Below the pieces are notes generated by a model that did not search any database, was not told where the DNA came from, and was given only the letters and a program-made list of their open reading frames with translations. From Candidatus Kuenenia stuttgartensis (GTDB lineage Bacteria > Planctomycetota > Phycisphaerae > Sedimentisphaerales > CAMDDF01): 47,129 bases of DNA. Positions within the stretch are counted from its first letter, which is position 1, and every line of letters starts with the position of its first letter. The translations under genes were made by a program, and so were the position numbers. The stretch lies in contig CAMDDF010000004.1 of assembly GCA_945890885.1 (NCBI GenBank), forward strand, positions 1 through 47,129, given 5' to 3'. Positions 32,626-40,203 of this stretch are shown here, in pieces.

Positions 32626-33399
32626 ATGCGCACTTACAAAAACAATTACCGAGCTTTCACGCTGGTTGAACTTCTGGTTGTCATATCCATACTAACATTA
32701 TTAATCAGCATCCTCATACCAAGCCTTGCAAAAGCAAGAGAACGTGCAAGACGCGTTACATGTATGAGCAACATAAGGCAATGCACCATCGCATGTAATC
32801 TCTACGCGGCGGATTTCAATGGTTGGCTGCCGTTAGGCAATATATGGGGAGATGAAAGCAAAGAAGAGGGCTGGCTCGATTTAAACTATCAATCCGCCAT
32901 GTATATACACTTAAACTATAACATAGATGAGTCCCACGCAATGTGTACATCATGGGCATCCGAAAAAGATAAATATTTTTATACGCCGGCTTCGGTCAAC
33001 AATGATAACTTCAAGGTAGGCGGAACCAGAATTGGATATGTTTATTACGGTAGAAGATTCGATAAAGAATCAAGCGTGTACTCCCCAATACTTGAAAATG
33101 GACAGGTTTACAAAACCCCACAAAGAATATATGATTCCCAAAAAATCTCAAGCAAAACATTATTTTCATGTTTCCATTGGGACGGCATCAGCACAGGCAG
33201 CGGCTGGGGGGCAAAGATACCACATATCGGCGGAGGCAAAGGCCAATATATACAGCCTTCGCAACAAAGTTTGATACCTAAGCCGGAAGGACTGGTTATT
33301 AGTTACTTAGACAGTTCTTCAGGATGGGTAAACTGGAAAAAGCTGAAATGGATTGAGCAGGCAAGTTCAATCAGATTGTATTTCAGCGATTTTCGATAA
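32626..33399 (+). CDS. Type IV pseudopilin-like protein
   Basis: The 257-aa protein has a leader ending YRAFTLVELLVVISILTLLISI, with a typical cleavage site before Phe. The body has CMSNIRQCTIACNLYAADFNG, a segment common in planctomycete pseudopilins just after the N-terminal helix. I chose the ATG at 32626; an in-frame TTG at 32611 is possible. It is the third gene of the sigma/anti-sigma group, separated by about 30 nt, so it may be part of the regulon. The large, Trp- and Tyr-rich outer domain is of unknown function. Confidence 0.8.
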   Translation: MRTYKNNYRAFTLVELLVVISILTLLISILIPSLAKARERARRVTCMSNIRQCTIACNLYAADFNGWLPLGNIWGDESKEEGWLDLNYQSAMYIHLNYNIDESHAMCTSWASEKDKYFYTPASVNNDNFKVGGTRIGYVYYGRRFDKESSVYSPILENGQVYKTPQRIYDSQKISSKTLFSCFHWDGISTGSGWGAKIPHIGGGKGQYIQPSQQSLIPKPEGLVISYLDSSSGWVNWKKLKWIEQASSIRLYFSDFR

Positions 33400-33416
33400 T
33401 TCTATCATCAATGATA

Positions 33417-33444
33417 TTGAAATCAGATTTGCTTATGATACAAT
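33417..33444 (+). promoter_or_regulatory. Sigma70-type promoter of the LysR gene
   Basis: TTGAAA (33417-33422), a 16-nt spacer and TACAAT (33439-33444) lie 28 nt before the LysR ATG. The match to the consensus is 5 of 6 at both boxes. Confidence 0.55.
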
Positions 33445-33472
33445 AAGTCTTTCTAATGACGAAAGGTTCATA

Positions 33473-34378
33473 ATGCAAATTGAAAATCTTCAGATTTTCT
33501 GCGATCTTGTCGAGTCGAAAAGTTTTTCGCGCGCAGGCGAAAAAAACTTCGTCAGCCAGTCGGCAGTATCTCAGCAAGTTTCGCAATTTGAAATGGAATT
33601 CAAATGTCAGCTTCTCGATAGAAAAAAAAGGCCCTTTGAGCTTACCGAAGCAGGCAAGGTATTCTATAAGGCTTGCAGGGAAATCCTTACGACATATCAG
33701 AGATTCAAGAGCGACCTTTCGCAGATGTCTTCCGAATCCAGGGTTTCAATTAAAATAAGCGCTATCTTTAGTATCGGTATGCATATCCTTCAGGAATTTG
33801 TCAGGCAATTTATGTCAAAATATCCCACCAGCAATGTTGAGCTGGATTTCGCCAATTCAGATAAAATTTACAAGGATGTTCTGGCTGGTCAAATCGACAT
33901 CGGAATAGTGGCAGTACCGAAAAAAGACAGGCATTTCGACGTTTTCGATTTCGTCGATGATGAGCTTGTTCTTGTCTGCAGCAAGAAACATACGCTGGCA
34001 GATGAAGCGGACATTGATATTCATCGGCTCCAGATGGAACGGTTTATCACTTTCGGCAAAGACGTACCAACAGGACAACTCATCGACAGCATACTCCAGA
34101 AATACGGCGTTGTTGTAAATACCGTGATGGAGTTCGATAATACCGAAACCATCAAACGGGCCGTCGAAATCAATTCCGGCATAAGCATCCTGCCGATTTC
34201 GACTGTTATGGCAGAACATCAGGCAGGAACACTTTGCGTGTTGCGTTTCACAAACGAAAGGCTCATCCGCCCATCAGGGGTAGTAATCCGCAAGAATAGG
34301 GTTTTATCCGAACAAACAAAATATTTTATTGAATTGCTAACCGGCGAAAAGGGTAAGATTCGAGCAAATGAAATTTAA
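33473..34378 (+). CDS. LysR-type transcriptional regulator
   Basis: The 301-aa protein has an N-terminal winged helix (MQIENLQIFCDLVESKSFSRAG, then SQSAVSQQVSQFE, residues about 1-60) and a C-terminal substrate-binding domain (about 88-295) with GQIDIGIV. The frame extends 40 codons upstream, but the ATG at 33473 matches the family start, has AAAGG 7 nt before it and lies just after a promoter. It overlaps the HAD gene by 11 nt. It may control itself or neighbouring genes; the ligand is not predictable. Confidence 0.92.
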   Translation: MQIENLQIFCDLVESKSFSRAGEKNFVSQSAVSQQVSQFEMEFKCQLLDRKKRPFELTEAGKVFYKACREILTTYQRFKSDLSQMSSESRVSIKISAIFSIGMHILQEFVRQFMSKYPTSNVELDFANSDKIYKDVLAGQIDIGIVAVPKKDRHFDVFDFVDDELVLVCSKKHTLADEADIDIHRLQMERFITFGKDVPTGQLIDSILQKYGVVVNTVMEFDNTETIKRAVEINSGISILPISTVMAEHQAGTLCVLRFTNERLIRPSGVVIRKNRVLSEQTKYFIELLTGEKGKIRANEI

Positions 34379-34958
34379 AGCGGTAATATTCGATCTTGAC
34401 GGTACGATAACCAAGCCGACACTTGATTTTGATGCTATCAAACATGAGATAGGCATGAAAGATATGTCGATGCCGCTGCTGGAAGCTATGGATAAAATGA
34501 GCGAATTTGAACGCATCAGGGCAGAAGAAATTATTTTAAGGCACGAATCGCTGGCTGCGAACAATTCGACACTCAATGATAATGCAGCTGAAACGCTGGA
34601 GGCTATTTCAGCCAGAGGGCTTAAAATCGGAATACTAACACGAAATATCGCCAAACATGCTGAGATTGTCGCTCAAAAGCATAACTTAAAATTCGATTTA
34701 ATTGTTGACCGTTTCACGGGCCCGGTAAAGCCCGACCCATTTGGGGTATTGCATATCTGCCGACACTTTGGTATAATCCCCGCACAAGCGGTAGTTGTGG
34801 GAGATTACCTGTTTGATATTTTGAGCGCCAAGTCCGCAGGGTCCGTGGCGATACTGCTGAAAAATAATGAAGACTCCGACGAATTTGCAAAGCACGCAGA
34901 TTATACAATAGATAATTTGAGTCTTTTGCTGCCTATTATTGACAAAAATGGAGATTGA
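34368..34958 (+). CDS. HAD-superfamily phosphatase
   Basis: The 196-aa protein has the HAD motifs: FDLDGT (motif I, residues 8-13), LTRN (motif II), a lysine in GPVKPDP (motif III) and GDYLFDI (motif IV). The cap insertion is short and helical, as in phosphoglycolate phosphatase-like members. The first 11 nt overlap the LysR gene, giving translational coupling. A sugar phosphate or 2-phosphoglycolate is a plausible substrate, but unproven. Confidence 0.85.
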   Translation: MKFKAVIFDLDGTITKPTLDFDAIKHEIGMKDMSMPLLEAMDKMSEFERIRAEEIILRHESLAANNSTLNDNAAETLEAISARGLKIGILTRNIAKHAEIVAQKHNLKFDLIVDRFTGPVKPDPFGVLHICRHFGIIPAQAVVVGDYLFDILSAKSAGSVAILLKNNEDSDEFAKHADYTIDNLSLLLPIIDKNGD

Positions 34959-34959
34959 T

Positions 34960-35802
34960 ATGAAAAAAATATTTATCGTGCCTGTTTTAATGTTATGCCT
35001 GCCAAGCTTTTGCTTTGCTATGGGTTGCCCGTGCGCCTCTGCCGAAGGTGATATCGTATGTAAAACATCTGCAACAGGCTATTCCAAAGACAAAAAAATA
35101 GAAGAGCAAAAACCACAGGATAGCGTCGAAACCGTACTGGCTGGCCTGACAGAAAAAACTGGCAGACTTAAATCATACCAGGCTCAGATAACCTCAACAT
35201 TCAAACAGCCGCTGCTTGAAACCAGAACCGTAAGAGAAGGCATAATTTATTACCTGAAAAGTGCTGATGAAAATAAACTGAGAATAAATTTTCAAAACCG
35301 CAAGGATGATGACCTTGAGCCGGAAAAAGACCGGCAGGAATATATTTTCGATGGGGTTTGGCTTACAAGGATAAACTACCCCACCAGCTATGTCGAAAAA
35401 CTCCAGCTTGCTCAGGAAAACGCCCCTGCTGATGCTATGGAGCTTGTAGGCGAAAATTTCCCGCTAATAGGTTTTTCTAACATCGAAAAACTTCGGAACG
35501 ATTTCGATATATCGCTTGTAACGGATTCTAATGACGTAACTTACAAAAATGCAGTCCACCTGAAACTTACCCCAAAAGCCCAAAGTTCCTATGCTGAGCA
35601 GTACAGCCAGATGGATTTCTGGGTAGATAAAAATATATCGCTTCCTGTTCGGATACAGGCCTTAACCGCTGAAAAAGATATTTATGACCTTACCTTTACA
35701 AAGATAAAATTTAACGGGCCAATCAAAAAGGATACCTTCAAAATCGATTATCCAGCTGATTTTACCGTCGAAATCAAGCCTATGGACAGCCCAAAAAGCT
35801 AA
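34960..35802 (+). CDS. Secreted LolA-like protein
   Basis: The 280-aa protein starts with a clear signal peptide MKKIFIVPVLMLCLPSFCFA. The mature part has the look of a LolA/LppX fold: KSYQAQITSTFKQPLLETR near its start, EYIFDGVWLTRIN in the middle and the motif VDKNISLPVRIQAL near residue 230. Such proteins carry lipoproteins or lipids in the periplasm. I chose the ATG at 34960 with GGAG 6 nt upstream; an earlier TTG (34939) would give an extended, poorer signal. It begins one base after the HAD stop, so it belongs to the LysR-HAD operon. Cargo is unknown. Confidence 0.72.
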   Translation: MKKIFIVPVLMLCLPSFCFAMGCPCASAEGDIVCKTSATGYSKDKKIEEQKPQDSVETVLAGLTEKTGRLKSYQAQITSTFKQPLLETRTVREGIIYYLKSADENKLRINFQNRKDDDLEPEKDRQEYIFDGVWLTRINYPTSYVEKLQLAQENAPADAMELVGENFPLIGFSNIEKLRNDFDISLVTDSNDVTYKNAVHLKLTPKAQSSYAEQYSQMDFWVDKNISLPVRIQALTAEKDIYDLTFTKIKFNGPIKKDTFKIDYPADFTVEIKPMDSPKS

Positions 35803-35910
35803 AAAAGGCGATAATCACAAGAAAATAGGGGTTTTTAACTTGCAATCACAGATTTTTTCTGCAAAATGATGCAGTTACAGGTAATCTGTACAGTATGGAA
35901 AGGATAATCA

Positions 35911-36387
35911 ATGGCGACAGGATTAGTCGTTTACTATTCAAGAAGCGGCAACACCAAAACTATGGCAGAGCTAATCGCCGCAGCTATGGATAAAGAAGGC
36001 GTTAAAACCCAAGCCAAAGAGGTTTCGCAGGTCAGCCCAAACGACTTGGTTGAAGTGGACGCGATAGTCATCGGTTCGCCGACATATTACGGCCATATGG
36101 CTGGAGAAATTAAAAAGCTTTTCGATGATTCTGTCAGCAAGCACGGCAAACTCGATGGAAAAGTCGGCGGAGCATTTTCAAGCTCGGTCAATATCGGCGG
36201 CGGAAACGAAACCGTCATTATGGGCATTATCGAGTGTATGCTCATTCACGGCATGGTAATTCAAGGCGACGCTCAGGGCGACCATTACGGGCCTGTTTCG
36301 ATAGGCAAGCCGGACGACAGAGTTATAACCCAGTGTAAAAGACGCGGCAAAAAAATCGCAGAGCTTACACTGAAGCTGTTTAAATAG
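35911..36387 (+). CDS. Flavodoxin-family protein (WrbA-like)
   Basis: The 158-aa protein has the FMN-phosphate loop SRSGNTKTMA (about 10-19) and the loop GSPTYYGHMAGEIK (about 54-67), followed by SVNIGGGNET. The pattern fits WrbA-like or flavodoxin_2-like proteins that bind FMN. A role in electron transfer or quinone reduction is typical. GGAAAGGATAATCA precedes the ATG. The 108-nt spacer upstream contains short palindromes but no clear promoter. Confidence 0.85.
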   Translation: MATGLVVYYSRSGNTKTMAELIAAAMDKEGVKTQAKEVSQVSPNDLVEVDAIVIGSPTYYGHMAGEIKKLFDDSVSKHGKLDGKVGGAFSSSVNIGGGNETVIMGIIECMLIHGMVIQGDAQGDHYGPVSIGKPDDRVITQCKRRGKKIAELTLKLFK

Positions 36388-36393
36388 TATAAT
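36364..36393 (+). promoter_or_regulatory. Possible promoter for the Hc1-like gene
   Basis: CTTACA (36364-36369), 18 nt and TATAAT (36388-36393) overlap the end of the flavodoxin gene. A perfect TTGACA directly after it (36394-36399) has no matching -10. Confidence 0.35.
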
Positions 36394-36458
36394 TTGACAA
36401 GCGTTATTGTCATTAAATTTTCTAAACCAATCAGTTTAATTAAATGGAGAACACAAAA

Positions 36459-36632
36459 ATGAAGGAATATGAAGAACTCAAAACGCTGGTAGCAGAAATT
36501 GAAGCAGACATCGCCAAAGCAGAAGGCGGCAACAAGGCAGCAGGCACACGCGTCAGAAAACAGATGCAGACCATCAAACAGGCTGCTCAGGTATTAAGAA
36601 GCAAAGTCCTTGAAATCAGGTCAGAAGATTAA
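36459..36632 (+). CDS. Histone H1-like protein, chlamydial Hc1 family
   Basis: The 57-aa protein is almost all alpha-helical and charged. The core AEGGNKAAGTRVRKQM closely follows the AEKGNKAAAQRVRT region of chlamydial Hc1, and flanking spacing of Leu, Ile and Lys also agrees. Hc1 compacts DNA in chlamydial elementary bodies; short homologues occur across the PVC superphylum. The Lys-rich C-terminal tail of Hc1 is missing here. The ATG at 36459 has GGAG 9 nt upstream; an ATG at 36444 lacks a site. Function as a nucleoid protein is inferred from homology only. Confidence 0.75.
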   Translation: MKEYEELKTLVAEIEADIAKAEGGNKAAGTRVRKQMQTIKQAAQVLRSKVLEIRSED

Positions 36633-36687
36633 TATCGCATCTTGTGTAATTTTAAAATTTTTAACCTGTTTTTATTAAGGAAAGTGA

Positions 36688-37161
36688 ATGCCACCCACCC
36701 AGTTATTTGATATGTCAGGCATCGATTTGAATAAGGTGCTTTTTGACAGGGATGAAATCAAAAAGGAGAACCCGCAGGATTTTGAGATGCAGCAGCTTGA
36801 CGGGATTATCTGGTATGACAAAGACAGCTTTATGAGTCTTGGTTACAAGGATGTAACGGATAAAGAATTCTGGTGCAGGGGTCATATTCCCGGCAGGCCG
36901 TTAATGCCTGGCGTTATTATGGTCGAAGCCGCCGCGCAAATGTCGAGCTTTGCAGTAAAAAGGTTTTACGGCCTTAAAGGTTTTATCGGATTTGCAGGCA
37001 TTGAAAACGCAAAATTCCGAAAACCTGTCGAGCCAGGCTCAAGACTGTACCTGTTGTGCTACATTAAAGTTTTCAAAAGAAGAAAATTTACTGCTATCGT
37101 GCAGGGCGTAGTTGACGACACAATGGTATTCGAATGCGAAGTATCAGGATTGAATGTTTAA
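36688..37161 (+). CDS. FabZ-like beta-hydroxyacyl-ACP dehydratase
   Basis: The 157-aa hot-dog protein has the FabZ active site FWCRGHIPGRPLMPGVIMVEAAAQ (about 61-84 in pieces), with catalytic His in GHIPGRP and Glu in VEAAAQ. An N-terminal extension of about 35 residues precedes the fold. Fatty acid elongation is the likely role, although the Cys-Arg before the catalytic His differs from the usual FxGHFPG. AAGGAAAG precedes the ATG. The UvrC-like gene follows after 3 nt. Confidence 0.83.
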   Translation: MPPTQLFDMSGIDLNKVLFDRDEIKKENPQDFEMQQLDGIIWYDKDSFMSLGYKDVTDKEFWCRGHIPGRPLMPGVIMVEAAAQMSSFAVKRFYGLKGFIGFAGIENAKFRKPVEPGSRLYLLCYIKVFKRRKFTAIVQGVVDDTMVFECEVSGLNV

Positions 37162-37164
37162 CAG

Positions 37165-38304
37165 ATGAATTCTGATAAACTTGAACTTTTTGACGGCTGC
37201 ATAGAAATCGAGCCGGACACAAGTTTTGAGACAATCTCAATAATCACCCCTTCTTCAAAAGGGGTGATTTTATTTACGGATGCCAACGATACCGCTGTTC
37301 AGCTTTTGATTGCCGCAAATATACGAAGAACCGTGCGTGCAAAACTCTTCACCGAGGAACCCCAGCAAACCAAAAGGCGCACAGACCTTACCGCGATAGT
37401 ACGCAAAATTTATTTCCATAAATGCTGGGGCGAATTTGAAACTGGCCTATGGCATTACAGAATCGCCAAACAAATCTATCCGCTAAATTACGCAGAACAG
37501 ATAGCGTTTGCAAATGCGGTGTATTTAAAGATTGACCCCTCCGCAAATTGGCCGGAATTTGCAATAACGGAATCGCCGGCATCAAATGGTAAATCCGTTA
37601 TATTCGGGCCGTTTGATTCGCGCAAATCGTATGGTATTTACAGCGAAGCTATCATAGAGGCGTTTTCGCTTTGCAGGCGTTCCCAGTGCATTGACAATCC
37701 GCAAAAGGCAATGTCGTGTCCGTATCTGCAAATGGGGCTCTGCGATGGGGTCTGCATTGGAAAGATATCACGAGGGGAATATCTTGAGCGTATTAAAAAA
37801 GCTGTCGATGCTGCGGGCGAGCCTGCGTTAATCCTTGAAGCGTTAAATGCTAAGATGCTTGCACTGAGTGGGCAGATGAAATTTGAGCTGGCCCAGAGCG
37901 TAAAGGATAAACTCGAAGAATTCAGTAAGCGGCTGAATAGTTTTTACTGGATTAAGGAACTGTCGAAGCTGGCGGTGCTGCATATAGATTTGTCGGATAA
38001 AATTAAAATCAAAGGCCGAAAAACCAAGATACAGATGTTCGCTGCATTTTTAATAACTGCACGCGGCATCAGCCAACTTGAAAAATTCGATATCGATGGG
38101 GTGGACAAAATCGTTGAAACAATTCGAAGCGTCGTAAATCTGCCGCGACAAACCAGGAATACTCAAGACCTTCGGGAACCGCTTTCGCTATTTTCGTATT
38201 ACCTTTATAAGTCGAATCGTCCGGGAATCTGGATTGGCTGTGATGGACAAATTGATACTTCGAAAATCAAATCGAAGATTACGCAAATGACACAGATTTC
38301 TTAG
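37165..38304 (+). CDS. Orphan UvrC-like protein with degenerate GIY-YIG domain
   Basis: The 379-aa protein aligns by eye with the first half of UvrC. Residues 33-62 (KGVILFTD then AANIRRTVRAKLF) correspond to the GIY-YIG core, but the YVGK tyrosine is lost. GPFDSRKS (148-155) and the Cys set C170, C175, C185, C193 and C197 match UvrC's Fe-S region (CPYLQMGLCDGVC). MKFELAQSVKDKLEEF (238-253) is a UVR (UvrB-binding) motif. The C-terminal RNase H and HhH nuclease domains are replaced by about 120 residues of unknown type. It probably does not cut DNA like UvrC. It is co-transcribed with FabZ. Confidence 0.75.
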   Translation: MNSDKLELFDGCIEIEPDTSFETISIITPSSKGVILFTDANDTAVQLLIAANIRRTVRAKLFTEEPQQTKRRTDLTAIVRKIYFHKCWGEFETGLWHYRIAKQIYPLNYAEQIAFANAVYLKIDPSANWPEFAITESPASNGKSVIFGPFDSRKSYGIYSEAIIEAFSLCRRSQCIDNPQKAMSCPYLQMGLCDGVCIGKISRGEYLERIKKAVDAAGEPALILEALNAKMLALSGQMKFELAQSVKDKLEEFSKRLNSFYWIKELSKLAVLHIDLSDKIKIKGRKTKIQMFAAFLITARGISQLEKFDIDGVDKIVETIRSVVNLPRQTRNTQDLREPLSLFSYYLYKSNRPGIWIGCDGQIDTSKIKSKITQMTQIS

Positions 38305-38335: not shown

Positions 38336-39670
38336 TCAATTCGCTTTAATCTCTATTAATGACTCGGCAAACTCCCGCAACTTTTCATCGCTCATTTGTT
38401 TATTGGCAGATAGACTCATAACCGTTCCATTCTGCATGACAATCATCATCGTAAATCGTTCATCGCTAAGGTTTTTAATATCAAAGAAATCCGGCTTTGC
38501 CTTTGCGAAACTTTCCAGAAAACGTTGTGCATATATTTGACCATTTGGATGACCGTAAAGCTTAATACCATTAGGAGTCTCAAAAACAAGTTGCTGCTTG
38601 GGTATCCACACCATTTTTGTCAAGTCATAACAATTTCCCTGCCCTAATATTATTATGTTTCCATCATTGCATACTATGCCGGTTACATACATTTTTTCTC
38701 TTGAGCCAAGCGGGTCAAGAATTTCTATCATACAAAGCTTCACTATCGGCGGTAATTTTCCAACAGTATATGCAGTATGGTTAAGTCCTTGTCGAATATC
38801 TTCTGCGGTGATCTCCTTGGGTTCAACAGGCCTGTAATCCTTGACTATTGTTTCAATCTTGTACCCTTCCGGAGCATCGGTACTGAATGCGGATGGGCCA
38901 AGATTGAAATCAAATTCAAATTCATCATTGAAAATGGTTTGCCCCGCACCAAACTCAGATTTAGGGTGTTTAATTTCTATTTCAACCGGAAGCTTTGTCT
39001 TCTCGTCAACCCAAACGGTGAAATCATTGTATACATTTGGCTGATGTCTGAATCCATACAAGGTTTTCCCATCCTGTTTTTTTGTGCCAAGTTTTTCTAC
39101 GGCTTTCTGCTCAAACTGTTTGACCATATCTATTATGTCAGGGTCCTCTTTTGGGCCAGCTCCAATAAGCTTGGTGAGAGTACCTATTTTCTGAGCCGTA
39201 TGAAGTTGTAAAATTATTACATCCGTGCCTCGCATATCAAAAATCTGTATGATGGCGCCGTTTGCAACTTCCTGCCGCCGCTGCGAAAGGTTCAGGTGGT
39301 AAATATTCATTGTTGGCAACTGAGGGCCTTCTTCACGAACAACCCGTTGACGGCATTTGTATTTTGTATAGCAGTTAAGCTGTTCAACTACTTGTGCCCA
39401 ACCAACAGACGATGTTTTTTCAAAAATACTGATTCCTGCAATTACTGCTGCAATAGCTACCGCAGCGGCAGCGAATTTAATTATTGTCTTATGCATTGTG
39501 ATTCTCCTTAGGTATTCAAAGCGAGGTTTGCAGGCAATGACAGGTTTTTCATTTTTGATGCGATTCATAACAGAATCTTTTACGGAGCCTGTGCTGTTTA
39601 CAAACTCGCTCAGTTTTTTTAGTTTTTGTTCGATATTATTTTCAGTAGTCATTTTCGACATTCTCAACAT
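38336..39670 (-). CDS. Membrane protein with LolA-like outer domain, possible anti-sigma factor
   Basis: The 444-aa protein has a cytoplasmic N-terminus of about 60 residues, one transmembrane helix (about 66-82, FAAAAVAIAAVIAGISIF) and a large outer part. Residues about 85-285 hold a LolA-like domain with VDEKTKLPVEIEIK, and the C-terminal 130 residues form a separate region. It is encoded 5 nt after an ECF sigma gene, so it is a candidate anti-sigma factor, as for the protein at 31790. The start is uncertain: ATGs at 39670, 39661 and 39652 are in frame. Confidence 0.58.
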   Translation of the reverse strand: MLRMSKMTTENNIEQKLKKLSEFVNSTGSVKDSVMNRIKNEKPVIACKPRFEYLRRITMHKTIIKFAAAAVAIAAVIAGISIFEKTSSVGWAQVVEQLNCYTKYKCRQRVVREEGPQLPTMNIYHLNLSQRRQEVANGAIIQIFDMRGTDVIILQLHTAQKIGTLTKLIGAGPKEDPDIIDMVKQFEQKAVEKLGTKKQDGKTLYGFRHQPNVYNDFTVWVDEKTKLPVEIEIKHPKSEFGAGQTIFNDEFEFDFNLGPSAFSTDAPEGYKIETIVKDYRPVEPKEITAEDIRQGLNHTAYTVGKLPPIVKLCMIEILDPLGSREKMYVTGIVCNDGNIIILGQGNCYDLTKMVWIPKQQLVFETPNGIKLYGHPNGQIYAQRFLESFAKAKPDFFDIKNLSDERFTMMIVMQNGTVMSLSANKQMSDEKLREFAESLIEIKAN

Positions 39671-39675
39671 TTATT

Positions 39676-40203
39676 TTATTCAGCACGGAGGCTGGTTAAT
39701 CGTTTCGCAAGAGTTTTTCTTGCCCGTGAAAGCAGAGATGTCGCAGAGCCGACCGGTCGGCATGTAATTCGTGCGGCATCATCTACGCTATGGCCATCGA
39801 AGTATCGCAGGGTAATTAAATCACGTTGCGAAGCCGGAAGTTTCATTATCGAATTAAGCAATTGCGCGTTATCCTGGTCAAGCTGGCCGTTGCGATTATG
39901 GGCTGGTATATCCTCAATTTGTTCAAGGCTAACCTGATGTTTTTGCTTTTTCAGGATTTCGATGGAGCAATTTTTTGCGATTTTTAATAGCCACGATTTA
40001 AAAGCATCTAAATTTTTCAATGAGCCCAAATTTTTGTAAGCGGTAATAAAAGTATCCTGCGTTGCATCATCGGCATGATGAATATTCTTGAGAATACCAA
40101 GGCACACCATACGCACGAGATTTTCGTATCGCTCGACAAGCTCCGAAAAAGTCTCTGTCTGGCCAGACAAAACAGATTTAATTACGTCTGAATCTTTTAT
40201 CAA
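39676..40203 (-). CDS. ECF RNA polymerase sigma factor (RpoE-like)
   Basis: The 175-aa protein has region 2 (FSELVERYENLVRMVCLGIL, then HHADDATQDTFITAYKNLGSL) and region 4 (RDLITLRYFDGHSVDDAARIT, then SLLSRARKTLAKRL). It starts with TTG, and GGAG lies 7 nt upstream. The next gene downstream is the LolA-like membrane protein. The two ECF pairs in this window (with 31288-32593) share layout but are not close in sequence. Confidence 0.9.
   Translation of the reverse strand: MIKDSDVIKSVLSGQTETFSELVERYENLVRMVCLGILKNIHHADDATQDTFITAYKNLGSLKNLDAFKSWLLKIAKNCSIEILKKQKHQVSLEQIEDIPAHNRNGQLDQDNAQLLNSIMKLPASQRDLITLRYFDGHSVDDAARITCRPVGSATSLLSRARKTLAKRLTSLRAE

Follow-up and report, generated by a model that had tools for sequence, protein, structure and literature searches.

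Orthodox Cho is a known active nuclease. In the classification of Dunin-Horkawicz et al. (2006), a Cho-like UvrC subfamily has the plan C4-UvrBb without EndoV-HhH, with one Gloeobacter example, and an exonuclease-fused variety, Cho-like+Exo, is specific to Actinobacteria (PMC1564403). UvrC itself is reported to carry a [4Fe-4S] cluster near its GIY-YIG domain (PMC8837605). At the RNA level, several types of RNA end inside ORFs have been documented in E. coli (PMC7815308). In a limited literature search, we found no description of a catalytically dead Cho-like branch or of the linkage of one to FabZ.

Here we analyze a 47,129-nucleotide stretch of DNA (the window) from a planctomycete of the order Sedimentisphaerales, class Phycisphaerae, whose genome assembly comprises 2.1 Mb in 152 contigs and is 96% complete. 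The window contains a gene for a Cho-like protein that is predicted to have lost its nuclease centre. The open reading frame, 37165-38304 on the + strand with 379 codons, is real, and an ORF check returns the same coordinates and frame as the preliminary description. It starts 3 nt past the stop codon of a FabZ-like gene, as had been noted, and ends 31 nt ahead of a convergent gene. The convergent gene encodes a 444-residue protein, and an adjoining 175-residue ORF resembles a sigma factor (38336-40203 for both). The parts of the UvrC-like gene are as follows.

37165..38304, + strand: Cho-like pseudonuclease gene, 379 aa, with a predicted dead GIY-YIG domain, a C4 (Fe-S type) motif, a UVR motif, and a family-specific C-terminal domain (ORF, orthologs, alignment, model, tree)
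37246..37509, + strand: GIY-YIG scaffold, about residues 28-115 (Foldseek to UvrC GIY-YIG domains, alignment-column counts)
37666..37764, + strand: cysteine motif C170-x14-C185-x7-C193-x3-C197, residues 168-200, expected Fe-S ligands (alignment)
37834..37929, + strand: UVR-like helical hairpin, residues 224-255 (Pfam PF02151, E 0.015; helices in the model)
37939..38301, + strand: C-terminal domain, residues 259-379, beta-beta-beta-alpha-alpha-beta-alpha, conserved in the family

The GIY-YIG scaffold and its lost active site

The full-length AlphaFold2 model of the window protein (pLDDT 91.5, pTM 0.86) finds its top PDB matches in the UvrC GIY-YIG domains 1yd6, 1yd2-1yd5, and 1ycz, with Foldseek probabilities of 0.99-1.00 and TM scores of 0.69-0.74 on target length, in agreement with the GIY-YIG scaffold proposed earlier. 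A search of solved structures by sequence returns no real match to the window protein.

In the joint alignment, numbered after Thermotoga UvrC, the catalytic positions Y19, Y29, K32, R39, Y43, E76, and N88 are occupied in the window protein by I35, Q46, I49, T56, K60, H97, and Y109, respectively. The preliminary description, which recorded a replaced catalytic tyrosine, understated the loss: all seven positions are lost in the window protein and in 30 of 30 sequences of the order. Y29, K32, Y43, E76, and N88 are lost in all 50 family members, and among the 20 class-wide members Y19 is kept in 9 and R39 in 5. The aligned UvrC rows with letters at these columns keep all seven residues (33/33). 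Because the active site is lost across members of both the order and the class, its loss is old and common to the family, not a local accident. Thus, the catalytic Tyr, Arg, and Glu (and Asn) that mark active GIY-YIG nucleases such as UvrC and Cho are missing.

The cysteines, the UVR motif, and the C-terminal domain

The C4 motif is the best conserved part of the protein in the alignment of the order. C170, C185, C193, and C197 do not vary among the 30 sequences of the order or among the 20 class-wide homologs. C185, C193, and C197 coincide with UvrC cysteines, and C170 is shifted by two residues relative to UvrC. The same ligand set as in UvrC suggests that the window protein carries a [4Fe-4S] cluster. 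Of the "four to five" Fe-S cysteines proposed earlier, these four stand and the fifth, C175, is not conserved.

The UVR-like hairpin that follows scores below the Pfam cut-off in the window protein (E 0.015); among 20 distant family members, 15 match the motif (best E 4.5e-6). The earlier assignment of a UvrB-binding motif is therefore weak for the window protein and holds for the family. Taken as anatomy, the idea of a dead, UvrB-binding-type relative of UvrC is well supported by the fold, the lost active site, and the C4 and UVR motifs.

The C-terminal domain, modeled alone, is predicted to fold (pLDDT 88.8). When full-length profiles are compared, the match to long planctomycete UvrC (E 2.3e-36) runs from the core into the UvrC middle segment, up to residue 326, and two NCBIfam profiles reach residues 337 and 349 of the window protein. 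The tail on its own gives less: its profile compares with UvrC at P 0.026, a search of NCBIfam yields single chance matches only, and its model has no convincing match in the PDB, so that the profile search proposed earlier returns no family for the tail alone. The domain occupies the place of the UvrC middle segment, and homology to that segment is suggestive only. The tail had been called unrelated to UvrC; it is instead a conserved domain of the family into which the full-length comparison continues. The earlier statement that the second nuclease half is missing is correct, since the RNase H/EndoV and HhH parts of UvrC are absent from the window protein and there is no match past the middle segment. 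Three orthologs (L031:1483-2877, L007:1204-2472, and L029:1300-2478) have extra stretches near the UVR-tail junction and in the tail, in frames that are otherwise open.

Comparison with described relatives

The window protein shares with the Cho-like subfamilies (PMC1564403) a UvrC-type GIY-YIG fold, four cysteines after it, and a UvrB-binding (UVR) region, the last at the level of the family (15/20), and like them it has neither EndoV/RNase H nor HhH. The domain plan thus matches one already known, here in a form that appears catalytically dead. In contrast to the exonuclease-fused Cho-like proteins (PRK07883), the window protein has no N-terminal exonuclease and starts with the GIY-YIG part. 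It further differs from Cho-like proteins by the loss of all catalytic GIY-YIG residues, by the conserved C-terminal domain, by the linkage to a FabZ-like gene, and, in one order, by an intragenic hairpin. Its N-terminal half resembles that of UvrC (TIGR00194) in fold, C4 motif, and UVR motif, possibly together with the start of the middle segment, whereas RNase H and HhH are absent, the 3'-incision centre is predicted to be dead, and the protein falls in a separate clade. Orthodox Cho (NF007833) is likewise truncated and has a UvrC-type GIY-YIG domain and C4 motif, but its match is limited to residues 28-215 (E 4.5e-6) and its C-terminal domain is not recognized.

The closest NCBIfam family is PRK07883, which comprises DEDD-exonuclease/GIY-YIG fusions (E 5e-22, residues 28-349) and is matched by all 20 class-wide members tested. 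UvrC (6e-13) and Cho follow, all far below equivalog cut-offs. With the UvrC equivalog TIGR00194, the window protein reaches 47.8 bits against a cut-off of 285, and the other UvrC copy of the same genome passes with 379 bits. That second copy, for which the preliminary description had proposed a search, lies on contig C5, has 442 residues, and is catalytically complete; the genome also encodes a UvrB-like protein with a UVR motif at its end. In the 442-residue UvrC (contig C5:35919-37247 = L003:1465-2793), the UvrC profile matches jump from 235 to 365, which leaves out the middle segment. The HhH end also seems to be lacking, whereas the GIY-YIG half retains every nuclease residue. Short UvrC proteins of this kind are found elsewhere in the phylum.

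Distribution and descent

Orthologs (E below 1e-14) are present in 52 of 98 genomes of the order and absent from about half; in one family of the order (f7), all sampled members lack the gene. Because whole families of the order do without it, the gene is dispensable. Homologs some 400 residues long (E 1e-35 to 1e-69) occur in many further families of Phycisphaerae. A wider distribution in the phylum is not supported: among 199 genomes sampled over the phylum, there is no family member outside the class, where matches score like ordinary UvrC. Plasmids give no DNA match and one distant protein match.

In a tree of 83 proteins, the 50 family members separate from 33 UvrC proteins with 100/100 support, and the 30 sequences of the order form one clade within the family. 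This tree was built without exonuclease-fused Cho-like proteins, and the root of the family is not placed in it. Identity among orthologs is about 30-40%, compared with 59-71% for the adjacent FabZ-like protein, and the frame is nearly always open, with one listed match flagged for an internal stop. As judged from the tree and the distribution, the family is old, has been inherited vertically within the class Phycisphaerae (Planctomycetota), and exists alongside ordinary UvrC. The label "orphan", given to the protein earlier, is therefore misleading.

A hairpin in the codons of the former GIY motif

A terminator scan of the window locates an RNA element near the start of the UvrC-like gene.

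37242..37269, + strand: perfect 11-bp RNA hairpin, codons 26-35, covering the former GIY motif (terminator scan)
37270..37278, + strand: U-rich tract after the hairpin, TTATTTACG (T content against the synonymous null)

The hairpin lies in the codons for ITPSSKGVI, the former GIY strand. Its folding energy stands out against dinucleotide shuffles (z -3.58) and against a synonymous-codon null (z about -3.3), in which randomization used each gene's own codon usage; a hairpin forced by the peptide alone is rejected by this null. Orthologs have hairpins at the same codons with different sequences, in registers that differ between clades, and there is one folding peak along the gene, at residues 18-37. 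Folding is significant against synonymous randomization in 16 of the 30 sequences of the order (z to -5.4) and in 1 of 20 outside it. The flavodoxin orthologs of window gene 35911-36387 show a weaker folding excess at codons about 12-27 (29% of genes below z -2), a peak near the start that comes without a terminator-like site.

We counted as terminator-like a stem of at least 7, with one mismatch allowed from 9, and at least 5 T in 9. These thresholds were set after the element had been seen, and the synonymous null, the neighboring genes, and the out-of-order homologs serve as guards. Such a site is found at this position in 25 of 43 orthologs, compared with 2.5 in the synonymous null (maximum 7 in 50 randomized sets), and the hairpin is absent in the other 18. 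Elsewhere in the same genes, the count is 3 in 672 windows; for the FabZ-like and flavodoxin genes at these loci, it is 0 in 168 and 0 in 147 windows, and none of 20 members outside the order has a site at the position. Over 30 sequences, the four codons that follow the motif are richer in T than under the synonymous null (z 5.1). Stem covariation in eleven related sequences is 0.203 versus 0.131 when shuffled (reached in 1 of 500), and slid structures give at most 0.073. Rfam returns one sub-threshold match, rliG (20 bits against a gathering score of 55), which we regard as chance.

A G+C-rich stem followed by a U-tract and maintained by selection has the anatomy of an attenuator, and from this anatomy we infer termination at the hairpin; another RNA role is possible. 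As in premature termination and the ORF-internal RNAs of E. coli (PMC7815308), RNA 3' ends within a coding sequence are a regulatory possibility, the difference being that the present case is deduced from conservation of hairpin and U-tract across orthologs. Alternatively, the hairpin could be real without being a terminator, and could act on translation speed or RNA stability, give rise to an ORF-internal small RNA, or mark the end of the upstream operon, overlapped by the gene only by chance. This alternative, which we consider possible yet doubtful, is in line with the ORF-internal RNA ends known in E. coli, with the variation of register among clades, and with the scarcity of canonical terminator-like sites between genes of the window, in view of which the host genome may not rely on intrinsic terminators. 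The enrichment of the U-tract past codon need argues for termination instead, and the hairpin is kept in L019 and L020, where the UvrC-like gene is not behind a FabZ-like gene. An origin as the mere end of the FabZ operon is further weakened by the FabZ-like loci without an adjoining UvrC-like gene, none of which (0/36) has a terminator-like site within 250 nt.

Linkage to the FabZ-like gene

The genes upstream of the UvrC-like gene include the following.

34368-34958, + strand: HAD hydrolase, outer part of the conserved block (Pfam, synteny)
34939-35802, + strand: LolA/MucB-like lipoprotein chaperone, outer part of the conserved block (Pfam, synteny)
35911..36387, + strand: flavodoxin-like/WrbA-like protein, conserved block (profile matches, synteny)
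36444..36632, + strand: histone H1-like Hc1 protein, conserved beside the pair (Pfam Hc1 8.6e-22, synteny)
36688..37161, + strand: FabZ-like 3-hydroxyacyl-ACP dehydratase, 157 aa (Pfam FabA 2e-18; NCBIfam fabZ below cut-off)

The FabZ-like gene is directly upstream of the UvrC-like gene in 26 of 29 loci of the order, mostly preceded by the Hc1 and flavodoxin genes, and LolA-like, HAD, and LysR genes prolong the block further upstream. The FabZ stop overlaps the next start in 13 of 25 junctions. Elsewhere in the class, the FabZ-like neighbor is kept in 13 of 20 loci. Accordingly, the linkage, described earlier as unexpected, belongs to a neighborhood conserved across the class. In the window, the series LysR, HAD, LolA-like, flavodoxin, Hc1, and FabZ-like spans 33353-37161; its order is conserved over much of Sedimentisphaerales, and the block from LysR to FabZ-like is present also in genomes without the UvrC-like gene.

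The FabZ-like protein has His66 and Glu80 invariant in the alignment of its family. The same genome encodes an LpxC-FabZ fusion whose score passes the FabZ cut-off; a further two FabZ-like genes adjoin ketosynthase and acyl carrier protein genes. Therefore, the linked FabZ-like protein is not the sole FabZ and is probably not the housekeeping one. Genome contigs were scanned with FabZ-like as query, the UvrC-like protein having no conserved stretch for such a scan. FabZ-like genes without an adjoining UvrC-like gene occur at many loci, and the UvrC-like gene lacks a FabZ-like neighbor in 3 loci of the order and in 7 of 20 loci of the class; all 10 such genomes tested have a FabZ-like gene elsewhere. 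By gene order, the linkage is old but dispensable. At three of the seven unlinked class loci, an XerC/D-type recombinase gene lies near on the same strand (L078:5488-6471, L082:499-1512, and L087:1779-2753), and L082 has a MutY-like gene about 3 kb off.

For the protein, the rival explanation with most weight starts from this setting. In this view, the protein senses redox state or iron through Fe-S chemistry, in connection with the FabZ-like enzyme and with envelope or lipid metabolism; the UvrC fold serves as a cluster scaffold only, and there is no repair role. The immediate and often overlapping FabZ-like neighbor, the C4 motif as the best conserved part, and a basic K or R in place of Y43 in 49 of 50 members would fit such a sensor. 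We nonetheless judge it unlikely, as each gene persists without the other beside it, in many genomes of the order for the FabZ-like gene and in the unlinked loci for the UvrC-like gene; the retained UVR motif and the recombinases near three unlinked loci also point away from it.

Discussion

The explanation that we prefer, to which we give an even chance, is that the protein is a non-cutting, cluster-bearing, UvrB- or DNA-binding accessory of repair and that an attenuator within the coding sequence limits its expression. On this account, the family descends from a Cho-like UvrC paralogue whose nuclease centre disappeared in the common stock of Phycisphaerae and which has since been retained as a non-cutting protein. 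Its cysteines would bind a [4Fe-4S] cluster, as in UvrC, and through its UVR and C4 parts it would dock on UvrB or on damaged or branched DNA. Nucleotide excision repair could thereby be modulated without cutting, for example by the UvrC site being held or vacated. Most transcripts of the FabZ-like operon would end at the intragenic hairpin, which would serve as an attenuator, unless they are closely followed by a ribosome entering from the overlapping fabZ stop. Expression would then be low and translation-dependent, by read-through of the attenuator in the 5' coding sequence, and the FabZ linkage would reflect co-expression and no shared reaction. The fast evolution of the protein (about 30-40% identity) is unusual for a core repair factor and speaks against the repair reading, as do the absence of the gene from whole families of the order and the sub-cut-off UVR match of the window protein. 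A more specific version, in which the dead nuclease is kept class-wide for a non-cutting repair role and in one order an attenuator overwrites the GIY motif, coupling expression to translation from the FabZ-like gene, is put forward only tentatively.

It is very improbable that the protein still cuts nucleic acids through an active site rebuilt in the GIY-YIG fold. The same kinds of replacement recur throughout the family (Y43 to K/R, E76 to Y/H/F, and N88 mostly to Y), indicating that the pocket is under constraint, but the order has lost the metal-binding glutamate along with both motif tyrosines, and in the alignment columns none of the 50 members has an acidic ligand in place of E76. A decaying duplicate without function, which the loss of all catalytic residues, the fast divergence, and the absence from about half of the order's genomes might suggest, is hardly credible given a frame that is nearly always open in the 52 genomes that have the gene, cysteines and other residues that are invariant at 30-40% identity, and conservation across class-level distances.

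If the preferred explanation is true, the UvrC/Cho family would include a pseudonuclease branch that a whole class has retained alongside canonical UvrC. Because canonical UvrC is still present, the pseudonuclease would serve as a natural experiment on the action of the Fe-S and UVR parts in the absence of cutting, and could help to isolate the role of the UvrC cluster. The hairpin in the codons of the lost active site would be a testable case of regulatory RNA and protein code written on the same bases.
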